64,000 bases of DNA from Candidatus Acidiferrales bacterium (lineage in GTDB: Bacteria; Acidobacteriota; Terriglobia; Acidiferrales; UBA7541), in the NCBI GenBank assembly GCA_035934015.1, contig DASYYH010000020.1:124001-188000 (forward strand), written 5' to 3'. A model generated the notes under the pieces. The model was not told where the DNA came from. It did no database searches and saw only the letters and a list, made by a program, of their open reading frames with translations. How positions within the stretch are numbered: the first letter of the stretch is position 1; the number at the start of each line of letters is the position of its first letter. Made by a program: the position numbers and the translations under genes. Positions 32,425 through 39,253 of the stretch are shown here, one piece after another.

Positions 32425-35474
<3,050 letters not shown>

Positions 35475-35529
35475 ATGCGAGGCCCTAACTAAGGGGCGAG
35501 AATGGCTACCTCGTTACCAGCAGACTTGT

Positions 35530-35946
35530 GTTGTCATTCCGAGCGGAGTGACCGGCGCATTTGTTTTTGCCGGTCACGCAGAGAGAAATCTGCAGTTCGC
35601 TTTTAAAGTTTTATGGAGCGCCAGTATTTTGTGTACATCATGTCCAGCCGCTCGCGGAATCTTTACACGGGTGTGACCAACAATCTGTTTCGCCGAACGG
35701 CTGAACACAAACTCGGTTCGATGAGCGGTTTTACGTCGAGATACAAGATCCAGAGGCTCATTTACTTTGAACCTTTCTCTGACATTCGCTCCGCTATCGC
35801 GAGGGAGAAGCAAATCAAATCTTGGAGTCGCGCGAAGAAGATTGTGCTGATTATGCAAATGAATGAGACGTGGAAAGACTTGCCCGAGGCATGGTTTTCG
35901 AAGCGAAGCCGAACTGCAGATTCCTCGCTCCGCTCGGAATGACAAC
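35530..35946. repeat. Inverted REP-like repeats enclosing a GIY-YIG ORF
   Basis: Two matching blocks in inverted orientation. The outer block GTTGTCATTCCGAGCGGAG (35530-35548) is repeated perfectly as its complement at 35928-35946 (19 bp). The inner block AATCTGCAGTTCG (35587-35599) is repeated perfectly as its complement at 35910-35922 (13 bp). The left copy also contains a 9-bp hairpin, GTGACCGGC (35548-35556) with GCCGGTCAC (35569-35577), absent from the right copy. The unit looks like a small mobile or REP-derived element. Confidence 0.7.
35613..35942 (+). CDS. GIY-YIG nuclease family protein
   Basis: A 109-residue single-domain GIY-YIG protein of the UPF0213/COG2827 type. It shows FVYIMSSRSRNLYTGVTNNL, where YIM and YTG occupy the GIY and YIG positions, then a RRTAEHKLGSMSGFTSRY region, the LIYFEPF strand and the IAREKQIKSWSR catalytic-helix segment with the Glu. 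The last 13 or so residues are encoded by the right-hand repeat, so the ORF reads into the element terminus. It lies between gyrB and gyrA. Probably a small element-borne nuclease; its target is unknown. Confidence 0.8.
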   Translation: MERQYFVYIMSSRSRNLYTGVTNNLFRRTAEHKLGSMSGFTSRYKIQRLIYFEPFSDIRSAIAREKQIKSWSRAKKIVLIMQMNETWKDLPEAWFSKRSRTADSSLRSE

Positions 35947-36237
35947 AGGCGGGCTGGGGCGGCGCACAGAAGGGAAACTTGCTTTACCAGTTGAGTTGGC
36001 AAACATTGCCGGGATTGAAAGGCCTGAGCTGCTCGAATTTTCGCGCTGTGGCGACGGACGCGCCGGATAGAGATCGCGGCGTGGCCTTTGAATGCGCGAG
36101 CGAAGCCGAATGTGCGGATTTGCTGAGGAAGCTCGAAGCTCATTTCGCCGCACAGCGGTTTTCAAACAATGCTGCCGCCTTCGAGGCGGTCAAGGCCCAG
36201 GTCTTGGAATTGAGCACAAGGCGAAGCTAAAGGAGTT

Positions 36238-36432
36238 CTAACAGAATGACTGGTCGCTTGCCGAGGCGAATTCGGGGGCTCCCCAGGTCTCGAGGTAGAG
36301 TTCGATGGCTTCGCGGAGATTGGCGCGCGCTGATTCCACGTCTTTGCCCTGTGTCGTTACATCAAGTTCAGGGCAGCGCGCGATGTACCAGTCGTCTTCT
36401 TTCGTAATCAACGCGGAGAAACGATAGTTCAT
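36238..36432 (-). CDS. HicB-like antitoxin-type protein, apparently orphan
   Basis: A 64-residue protein with the HicB fold: FSALITKEDDWYIARCPELD, then TTQGKDVESARANLREAIELYLE. HicB proteins normally neutralise a HicA RNase toxin encoded next to them. No HicA-like ORF is visible on either side, and the usual DNA-binding C-terminal extension of longer HicB forms is absent. It may be a solitary antitoxin-like protein or a relic. It lies just upstream of the gyrA control region, on the opposite strand. Confidence 0.75.
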   Translation of the reverse strand: MNYRFSALITKEDDWYIARCPELDVTTQGKDVESARANLREAIELYLETWGAPEFASASDQSFC

Positions 36433-36700: not shown

Positions 36701-39253
36701 ATGGCTGACGAGCAATCACAACAGATTCTGACTCCGGTCGATATCGAATCGGAGATGAAGAAGTCGTACCTCGATTACGCCATGAGCGTGATCATCGGGC
36801 GCGCGCTGCCTGACGTGCGCGACGGCTTGAAGCCCGTCCATCGCCGCATTCTTTATGCCATGTACGACATGGGCCTGCTTGCTGGCCGCAAGCGCTCGAA
36901 ATCGGCCGGCGTCGTTGGCGAAGTGCTCAAGAAATATCACCCGCACGGCGACGTTCCCGTCTACGACGCACTGGTTCGCCTCGCGCAAACGTTCAACATG
37001 CGCTATCCGCTCGTCGATGGCCAGGGCAACTTCGGCTCTGTCGATGGTGATCCTCCCGCAGCCATGCGTTATACGGAGGCGCAGCTTTCCCGCATTGCCG
37101 CGGAGATGCTTGCGGACATCGAGAAAGAAACCGTTGATTTCGTTCCCAACTACGACGAGAGCACGCAGGAGCCCGTCGTCCTGCCGACGAAGATTCCCAA
37201 TTTGCTTGTCAATGGTTCAAGCGGCATCGCCGTCGGCATGGCCACGAATATTCCGCCGCATAACCTGAAAGAAATCCTCACGGCGACGGTTGCGTTGATT
37301 GAAGATCCGGAAACGAATCTGAAAAAAGTGATGAAGATCGTGCCCGGTCCGGATTTTCCGACCGGCGGCTATATCTACGGCCGCGAGGGAATCGAGCAGG
37401 CGTACAAAACGGGCCGCGGAACTTTCCAGGTGCGCGCCAAAGCGGCCATCGAACAGGCCGGAAAAGACCGCGAAAATATCGTCATCACCGAGCTGCCCTA
37501 CCAAGTCAATAAATCGCGGCTCATCGCGCACATCGCCGATCTGGTGCAGAACAAGAAAATTCAGGGCATCAGCGACATTCGCGACGAAAGCGACCGCGAC
37601 GGCATGCGCATCGTCATCGAGGTGAAGCGCGACGAAGAGCCGCAGCTCATTCTGAATCACCTCTTCAAGCAGACGCAGATGCAGGAATCTTTCGGCATGA
37701 TCCTGCTCGCCATTGTCGCGGGCCAGCCGCGCGAGCTGGGCCTCGTCGAACTCATCAAGCTTTTCATCGAGCACCGCATCGAAGTGGTCCGTCGCCGCAC
37801 GCAATACGATTTGCGCAAGGCCGAAGAGCGCGAACACATCCTGCTCGGTTTCAAGAAAGCTCTGGAAGTTCTCGACGAACTGATCAAGCTGATTCGCCGC
37901 TCGAAGTCGCCCAAGGAAGCCAAAGAAGGAATGATCGAGCGGTGGAAATTCACGGAGCGCCAGGCGCAGGCGATTTTGGATTTGCAACTCCATCGCCTCA
38001 CGCAGATGGAGCGCGAGAAGATCGCCGAGGAACTGAAGCAAGTTCAGGTGCGCATCGCAGAACTGAAAGAAATCCTCGGCAGCGATAAAAAACTGCGCGG
38101 CGTCATCGTCGCGGAGCTGAAGGAAATCGAAAAAGATTATGGCGATGACCGCCGCACGCAAATTGTGGACCGCGTCGAAGAGATCAAGCTCGAAGACTTG
38201 ATCAAAGAAGAAGAAATGGCCATCACGGTGAGTCACGCGGGCTACGTGAAGCGCACGCCGGTGGATGTCTATCGCCATCAATCGCGCGGCGGCAAGGGCC
38301 GCATCGGCGCGAAGACGCGCGAAGAGGATTTCGTCGAGCATTTGTTCGTCGCCTCGACGCACACCTACATTTTGCTCTTCACTTCGAAGGGCCGCGTCTA
38401 TTGGCTCAAGGTCTATGAAATTCCCGAAGCGGCGGCGGCCACGCGCGGCAAGGCCATCAACAGCCTGGTCCATTTCCAAGAGGGCGAAAAGCTGACGGCC
38501 GTGGTTGCAGCGCGGAATCTCGAGGAGGAGGGCCGCTACGTTTTTCTGGCTACAAAGCAAGGCACGGTGAAAAAGACCGGCCTCGCGGAATTTTCCAATC
38601 CGCGGCCAAGCGGCATCATTGCCATCAATCTCGATGGCAGCGATGAACTCATCGGCGCGAAATTGACCGACGGCAAGCAGATGATTTTCCTCGCCAGCCA
38701 CGACGGCCAGGCCATTCTCTTCCGCGAAACGGAAGTGCGCGCGATGGGCCGCCAGGCCGCCGGTGTAAACGGCATGGATCTCGCCAAGGACGATTACGTT
38801 GTCTCCATGGACGCTGTGCAGCCCGATTTCGAAATCATCAAGAAGGAATTCAAGAAAGAGACGCAAGACCTCGACGATCTCGAAAGCGATCAGATCCGCG
38901 AATCGCTCACGTCGCTGATGCTTACGGTCGCCGAGAAAGGCTACGGCAAGCGCACGCCGCTCGCCGAATATCGCGTCACGTCGCGCGGGGGCAAAGGCGT
39001 CATCAATTTGAAGACCACCGACCGCAATGGCTCGGTCGTTGCCGCCCTACAGGTGAAGGAAGATTCCGACGTGATGATCATCACCGGCCAGGGCAAAGTG
39101 ATTCGCGTGCACTCAGCGGAAATTCGCGAAGCGGGCCGCTCGACGCAAGGCGTGCGCCTGCTGCGCCTCGATGAAGGCGACCGCATCGCCGCTGCCGCTT
39201 CCATCCTCGAAGAAGAAGAGGCCGGAGCGCCCGGTGAAGGTTCACAGGGCTGA
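36701..39253 (+). CDS. gyrA: DNA gyrase subunit A
   Basis: Breakage-reunion subunit of gyrase, 850 residues. The N-terminal winged-helix core carries the catalytic Tyr124 in [10 protein letters not shown]. The quinolone-region helix reads [15 protein letters not shown]. The C-terminal beta-pinwheel shows repeated blades such as [26 protein letters not shown], shortened here, and a degenerate GyrA-box [11 protein letters not shown]. An acidic EEEEAG-rich tail ends the protein. Unlike the E. coli form, the positions equivalent to Ser83 and Ala84 are Val and Pro. Confidence 0.96.

Follow-up and report, generated by a model that had tools for sequence, protein, structure and literature searches.

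A gene for a small GIY-YIG nuclease lies between gyrB and gyrA of a Candidatus Acidiferrales bacterium, enclosed by inverted repeats of which one encodes the end of the protein. What is this arrangement, and what does the nuclease have to do with the repeats? The annotators' label for the gene is only "GIY-YIG nuclease family protein", and a link to the repeats would give the gene a meaning. The locus is part of a stretch of 64,000 nucleotides that was analysed as a whole and is termed the window here. A sequence-only reading had seen in it a possible undescribed mini-element with REP-like repeats. This interpretation largely holds; the association is far wider than first seen, and movement is what we infer. 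We consider it rather probable that an autonomous, REPtron-like REP element is seen here in one of its copies, with a GIY-YIG nuclease in place of the HUH transposase.

Anatomy of the gyrB-gyrA interval

The gyrB and gyrA open reading frames (32985-35474 and 36701-39253, labels assigned by reading the translations) stand on either side of the locus, where the sequence-only reading had placed them. Two outer inverted arms of 23 nt (35529-35551 on the plus strand and 35925-35947 on the minus strand, 96% complementary) flank the gene, and their longest perfect block is TGTTGTCATTCCGAGCGGAG, 20 nt. A second inverted pair (35577-35599 with 35910-35932, 87%) includes the perfect 13-nt block AATCTGCAGTTCG, with the left copy at 35587-35599 on the plus strand and the right copy at 35910-35922 on the minus strand. 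Perfect inverted blocks of 19 bp and 13 bp had been claimed; the shorter one stands as described and the longer one is corrected to 20 nt.

Each side holds a REP unit, and only the right one is a perfect canonical unit. It lies on the minus strand (35919-35944) and reads TGTC-ATTCC-GA-GC-GGA-GC-GA-GGAAT-C. The left unit (35532-35590, plus strand) has the tag TGTC followed by ATTCC-GA, a degenerate 3' stem (GAAAT versus GGAAT) and an enlarged loop. The additional 9-bp hairpin that had been noticed in the left copy is indeed found in this loop (35548-35577, plus strand): GTGACCGGC at 35548-35556 pairs with GCCGGTCAC at 35569-35577, with a z-score of -4.24 when folded as single-stranded DNA. The nuclease frame of 109 amino acids (35613-35942, plus strand) runs into the right unit, which, as the first reading had it, doubles as its C-terminus; the final codons and the TGA stop fall inside the repeat. 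Between 35400 and 36100 there is no Rfam match up to an E value of 1.

Two further small frames follow before gyrA. One, without a Pfam match (35979-36230, plus strand), lies on DNA whose conservation extends to the gyrB-gyrA interval of three relatives; the other (36238-36432, minus strand) has a weak likeness to UPF0150 at 24.6 bits, below the cut-off.

The encoded protein

The frame matches PF01541 with 55.3 bits (cut-off 22.6) and no other Pfam family, and the earlier description as a single-domain GIY-YIG protein is confirmed. In an alignment of 86 sequences Y18, R28, E65 and N84 are invariant, and Y8, G20 and H32 are conserved at 90% or more. The spacing of Y8, Y18 and H32 equals that of Y19, Y29 and Y43 in UvrC, which we take to be catalytic residues. 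A structure model has a mean pLDDT of 84.2, with residues 96-109 below 50, and the tail encoded by the repeat is predicted to be disordered. The best solved structural matches are a UPF0213 protein (1zg2, E 8.5e-5) and then Slx1-Slx4 (6seh, E 4.3e-3). No NCBIfam family matches the window protein at an E value of 0.001.

Dispersal of the repeat and polymorphism of the site

The sequence TCATTCCGAGCG occurs at 14 exact places in the bacterium's own genome (3.37 Mb, 28 contigs), far beyond the locus itself, and a genome-wide copy count is what had been proposed as a check. With up to one mismatch there are 72 places and 13 for the reversed pattern, and because the counts exceed this control the dispersal goes beyond chance. 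Thirty places were fetched: 13 of the 14 exact ones are repeat-like units, and most of the 16 with one mismatch are not. Orphan copies, for which a test had been proposed, are present. Six clean units of about 47 nt (L002, L005, L006, L009, L013, L014) consist of TTGTCATTCCGAGCGAGGATGCG, a loop and GCATCCGACGAGGAATCTGC, without a reading frame between the arms.

Of the 61 genomes of the family, the bacterium's own among them, 49 contain the pattern TCATYCCGARC-N(2-32)-GAGGRATCTG; its reversed control matches none of them. Homologues of the protein above 88 bits are found in 25 of these genomes and any match at E 0.001 or below in 38. Repeat units are more numerous where a homologue above 88 bits is present (median 9, n=25) than where it is missing (median 2, n=36; p 8e-4), and the absences are uncertain since the genomes are mostly metagenome assemblies. 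Against the reading as an element counts that 26 of the 36 genomes lacking such a homologue, three of the 36 having weak or partial ones, still match the repeat pattern.

The end of gyrB was located in four of the five genomes of the genus, own genome included. The GIY-YIG frame is absent from all three other genomes readable at gyrB-gyrA (G032, G026 and G002; G015 was not readable there). In G032 the aligned gyrB end and the following aligned stretch lie 36 bp apart, in G026 the interval holds an unrelated frame without a Pfam match, and in G002 it holds an unrelated gene for a Hypoth_Ymh protein (PF09509). A tagged hairpin was not found in the gyrB-side intervals of these three genomes. The site is polymorphic among relatives and the repeat has copies elsewhere, and neither of the two results named in advance as refuting came about. 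The stretch from gyrB to the next conserved DNA (L065, L067) carries differing cargo in G026 and G002 and may be an insertion hotspot.

For seven orphan repeats the flanking sequences were looked for in four genomes of the same genus, and four of these loci were comparable. At one of them (L028) about 86 bp are present here and absent in G026, and since the empty side keeps TCATTCC, a loss in G026 explains the difference as well as a gain. A second (L008) differs between genomes with indeterminable polarity, and at L006 and L002 other repeats or genes occupy the same interval. These four loci yielded no target-site duplication or exact junction, which also counts against the element.

Association of gene and repeat across bacteria

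A wider set of homologues consisted of the best 80 of at least 578 confirmed relatives in species-level genomes, obtained from the alignment of the family homologues. An initial rule, TCAT-xyz ... complement-ATC at no more than 300 bp from the gene, found units beside 65 of the 80 loci and on both sides of 48, with a background of 34 units in 125 kb located more than 600 bp from the gene. When the flanks of the 15 remaining loci were read, most showed the same hairpin with an altered outer base pair, such as GTCATCCC...GGGACC and GTCGTCCC...GGGACC. The final rule fixes the tag, a 5-bp stem with the outermost pair free, and the following C. A definition with a 6-bp stem was dropped; it missed units, since the stem is 5 bp and then GA/GA.

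Gene and tagged hairpin are associated in many phyla. Among 127 close homologues, which include the window's own element (L034) and were separated from the distant GIY-YIG genes by a split chosen after inspection near a tblastn score of 70 bits, a unit stands on any side of 122 genes against 56.2 in resampled flanks (first-order Markov), on both sides of 94 against 10.2, and in an outward-facing pair at 76 against 2.6; five genes have no unit on either side. Distant GIY-YIG genes have units on both sides in one of 22 cases (resampled 2.2) and an outward pair in none (0.6). Windows centred 750 bp upstream have both-sided units in 12 of 108 (11.3) and outward pairs in six (3.4). Near the 127 genes there are 442 tagged units against 80.6 resampled (TGTC 294, CGTC 100, CCTC 48; the search was limited to these tags). 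Inverted blocks of at least 14 nt join the flanks of 45 of the 127 close and three of the 22 distant loci, and none occurs in the resampled flanks of either set. For the 71 close rows with a known phylum, both-sided units are found in 51 rows and 20 of 23 phyla, and the outward pair in 41 rows and 18 phyla; Armatimonadota, Bacillota and Bacteroidota have no both-sided row among these 71, which, like the five genes lacking a unit, counts against the element. That a common repeat merely happens to stand beside a common gene has a practically negligible probability: repeats are indeed frequent in some genomes, whereas resampled flanks, far windows and distant GIY-YIG genes lie at or near chance level (Fisher p 4e-20 for outward pairs at close homologues versus far windows).

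Two loci near the border were assigned individually, L060 (66 bits, truncated gene) to the close set and L059 (67 bits, REP-like flanks) to the distant set. L105 was omitted for lying on the same contig as L036, one close locus for a short flank, and the distant loci L063, L199, L206, L207, L210 and L213 for having no tblastn match. Records from a plasmid collection contributed 16 of 38 with a match, 12 close and four distant. None of these four distant homologues (Subdoligranulum, Sphingomonas parapaucimobilis, Acidiphilium, Methylobacterium) has an outward pair; in two of them the flanks share inverted blocks of another kind, 16-17 nt long.

L059 carries a 19-nt inverted block with tag-like ends, CGCGTTTTCCGGGATGACA, on both sides. 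Because of these inverted flanks the family has no sharp limit, which counts against the element, and further GIY-YIG subfamilies may own REPs. Other inverted repeats (CTGAGCGAAGTCGAAG and GGCACCTCAGGATGAGG) lie near distant GIY-YIG genes of alphaproteobacteria (L189, L193). On a Planktothrix agardhii plasmid (L183) a GIY-YIG gene sits between a type IIL MmeI restriction gene and the DISARM gene drmA.

Design of the hairpin unit

The general form of the unit is TGTC-AT-xyz-GA...GA-z'y'x'-AT-C. A frame that does not ask for pairing, tag-AT-NNN-GA-(9 letters)-NNN-AT-C, picks out 87 units of 24 nt in 39 loci. The stem trinucleotides are complementary in 81 of the 87 units, against 16.5 expected when partners are reshuffled among units, and they vary among loci (TCT, TCC, CCC, CCT, GCT, TTC and others). 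The second GA is kept in 77 of the 81 paired units, and 74 have a GNA triloop (GAA 33, GCA 31, GTA 6, GGA 4). Stems of some relatives start with GT/AC, AC/GT or GC/GC rather than AT. With standard DNA energies the right unit of the window alone folds no better than its shuffles; perhaps such energies give the GA/GNA motif no weight. The structural claim for the hairpin is made because of the covariation of the trinucleotides.

DNA mini-hairpins with a GNA loop and at least two G-C pairs are extraordinarily stable and resistant to nucleases (Hirao and colleagues; PMC4686876). The likeness to these mini-hairpins points to single-stranded DNA as the form that may be recognised. The same resistance (PMC4686876) could mean that such hairpins need a special enzyme, and together with the structural nearness to Slx1, a branched-DNA nuclease, it speaks for a house-keeping nuclease with which the host would trim or resolve REP hairpins or cruciforms, the flanking repeats regulating the nuclease's own gene. 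A house-keeping gene would sit poorly with the patchy presence of homologues in the family (25 of 61 genomes above 88 bits), with up to five matches in one genome, with the existence of copies that have internal stop codons, and with chromosomal neighbours that differ among the loci read; on the Azospirillum lipoferum plasmid AZO_p3 (L178), for instance, the gene and its REPs split the suf cluster between sufB and sufC. We regard this explanation as decidedly unlikely.

Repeat types, gene-less pairs and Y1 transposases

Nuclease and repeat type go together. Three stem types (TGC, YCT, YCC) were counted in 50 genomes from the 80 loci, with a reversed control of 0 or 1 per genome; 45 of the 50 have one of these types at the gene, assigned by hand from the flanks. 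For 38 of these 45 genomes, the type that flanks the gene outnumbers the other two among the dispersed units (p 2e-12 against a chance of one third). The highest total is 538 units in G086, with a reversed control of 0, and G073 has 136 units of the TGC type. The genomes of L158 and L162 (G070 and G073) contain mosaic arrays with many hairpin cores and one stem type. Stem types also cluster on the protein tree, with 39 changes over 114 rows against a shuffled mean of 68.8 (lowest 61 of 200), on a tree that is poorly resolved (nine of 124 inner branches starred). Across phylum borders, nearest homologues agree in stem type in 24 of 65 cases against 15.8 with labels shuffled within phyla, a value reached in 35 of 1000 shuffles, and this is a weak test.

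Pairs also exist without the gene. In three genomes (G073, 80 of 136 places typed; G086, 46 of 538; G089, 47 of 47; the hand-selected rows of G093 and G050 were kept out) neighbouring listed places at most 60 bp apart form 42 outward, 17 inward and 14 tandem pairs. Outward pairs are closely spaced: in G073 24 of 26 have a 5-nt spacer, and the spacers measure 12-20 nt in G086 and 18-25 nt in G089. The arrays of G073 alternate in orientation with 5-nt spacers. From these narrow spacers it follows that the GIY-YIG gene takes the place of the spacer. No outward preference was seen in 56 gene-less loci from the pattern searches, mostly from Acidobacteriota and with chance places included (three outward, two inward, nine tandem), and this counts against the element.

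The same pairs lend themselves to the main rival, in which a GIY-YIG homing gene cuts REP dimers and recombines into their spacer while the REPs spread by another route. GIY-YIG is a classical homing nuclease fold, the gene sits in the spacer of outward pairs that also exist gene-less, and gene conversion would likewise keep the repeats of one genome alike. Such homing into existing dimers is nevertheless rather unlikely in our judgement: at gyrB-gyrA the three readable relatives keep no repeat, so that the whole block of repeat, gene and repeat is polymorphic, and the stem type tracks the protein tree, which is not required of a parasite on pre-existing repeats.

It might also be that RAYT-type transposases (Y1, HUH) move the repeats and the GIY-YIG gene rides along as a passenger. 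The GTAG REPs set a precedent, being tied to RAYT-type transposases (PMC3733652, PMC8266576), and Y1 transposases (PF01797) are encoded in 12 of 14 repeat-rich genomes; the two without a match, G073 and G042 (both of them assemblies that are incomplete or of unknown completeness), speak against the passenger. Of 51 Y1_Tnp matches, loci were obtained for 30, of which 29 were used and 28 had enough flank. Outward pairs are absent from these 28 genes (resampled 1.6), and units on both sides do not exceed chance (three against 3.7; none under a strict rule of tag plus GA). For the GIY-YIG genes there were 31 matches, of which the 24 best placed were used and 23 had enough flank. Ten of the 14 genomes are common to both surveys, and the comparison repeated on these ten gives outward pairs at 11 of 15 GIY-YIG genes (resampled 0.3) and units on both sides of 12 (0.8); several of these genes are also in the set of 127 and hence are no independent sample. 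PMC3733652 likewise reports no dedicated transposase for CGTC repeats. We hold the passenger to be very improbable.

Proposed mechanism and comparison with known systems

Taken as an autonomous REP element, the locus suggests the following working model. The GIY-YIG gene would sit in the spacer of a pair of tagged hairpins, with TGTC or CGTC tags facing outward, and gene-less pairs would be non-autonomous copies. When the repeats become single-stranded, on the lagging strand or in a cruciform, they would fold into hairpins that combine a short stem with a tandem GA/GA step and a GNA triloop. The nuclease, with a fold nearest to UPF0213 and the branched-DNA nuclease Slx1, may recognise its own family of hairpins and nick near the tag, a step that is favoured because UPF0213 and Slx1 are the best structural matches. 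The dimer, with or without the gene, could then be released or copied elsewhere by host replication and repair. Binding, cleavage and mobilisation by the nuclease are what we infer here; to our knowledge, such transposition chemistry has not been described for GIY-YIG proteins.

The protein differs from the enzymes it resembles. A single-domain GIY-YIG protein of the UPF0213 type (BH0048, PDB 1zg2) is nearest among solved structures by sequence and fold, and the distant GIY-YIG genes examined lack the outward repeat pair (0 of 22). Slx1, a structure-specific nuclease and the next best structural match, has the GIY-YIG domain in common with the window protein; Slx1 has a further domain and acts with Slx4, whereas the window frame is a single domain. 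Homing endonuclease genes normally sit in an intron, an intein or a cut homing site, and the window gene lies in the intergenic stretch that parts gyrB from gyrA; REP dimers may conceivably contain a homing site.

The closest known repeats are the CGTC REPs. Di Nocera et al. (2013, PMC3733652) describe them as abundant and old, without a known enzyme, and state that they "apparently lack a dedicated transposase"; the paper counts dRS3 of Neisseria and RPE-4/RPE-6 of Rickettsia among them. Their form in that text is a tag CGTC (TGTC and CCTC allowed), a stem of 8-9 bp, a loop of 4-5 and a tail CCA, with dimers usually in opposite orientation (PMC3733652). An unpaired CGTC or TGTC tag, a stem that begins with AT, dispersal, common dimers and occurrence in several phyla are shared with the repeats described here. 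The window tag TGTC is one of the allowed tags, and the stem of the right unit, ATTCC...GGAAT, starts with complementary AT as in CGTC REPs. Differences exist as well. The 24-nt form has 5 bp, GA/GA, 2 bp and a GNA triloop, or longer loops, in contrast to the stem of 8-9 bp and loop of 4-5 given in the text of the 2013 paper, and the window unit continues with CTG and not with the tail CCA given there. As to dimer orientation, the counts vary with the set: outward, inward and tandem pairs number 42, 17 and 14 in the three genomes, and 3, 2 and 9 at the acidobacterial orphan loci. Units from alphaproteobacteria and Neisseria look nearer to the published form than the 24-nt unit does.

In four taxa treated in PMC3733652, reached here via the plasmid collection, a GIY-YIG gene is flanked by CGTC-like units: Azospirillum lipoferum 4B (for example CGTCATCCCCGCGAAGGCGGGGATCC), Novosphingobium aromaticivorans, where the stem starts with GC, Sinorhizobium meliloti, where the tag is CCTC, and Neisseria gonorrhoeae (CGTCATTCCCGCGCAGGCGGGAATC). 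The string "giy" is absent from the main text of that paper, and among the papers listed for the open-access literature, preprints excluded, no title or start of an abstract makes an earlier link between GIY-YIG and REPs, which is no proof of novelty. For the question of which enzyme the CGTC REPs are missing, open since 2013, the nuclease that accompanies such repeats across phyla is a good and directly testable candidate. A wider reading is nearly as likely as not, and we offer it tentatively: a class of mobile elements that occur across phyla and depend on a lone GIY-YIG nuclease to move DNA via single-stranded hairpin repeats. This nuclease would be the missing CGTC REP enzyme, with the tandem GA step and the GNA mini-hairpin as the recognition fold and with dRS3 and its kin as non-autonomous copies. 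If true, arrays of repeats like dRS3 would gain a possible origin. A DNA mini-hairpin motif is apparently in use, which makes a single-stranded DNA substrate a sharp prediction.

The nearest analogue in overall design is the REPtron, the GTAG REPs with their RAYT or TnpA-REP enzyme. There, as here, the gene of a small DNA-processing enzyme lies inside inverted, dispersed and tagged hairpins, and enzyme and repeat type are paired. The first description of the locus as a REP/RAYT-type unit with a GIY-YIG nuclease is apt as an analogy, given the orphans, the polymorphic site and the flank association; as a family assignment it fails, the repeats being of the CGTC and not of the GTAG/RAYT kind. 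A REPtron has an HUH/Y1 enzyme and the tag GTAG, and the locus described here has a GIY-YIG fold and the tag TGTC or CGTC. Probably new is a REP element with another enzyme fold, joined to a REP superfamily for which the lack of an enzyme had been reported; if true, this would bring a second enzyme family into REP biology.
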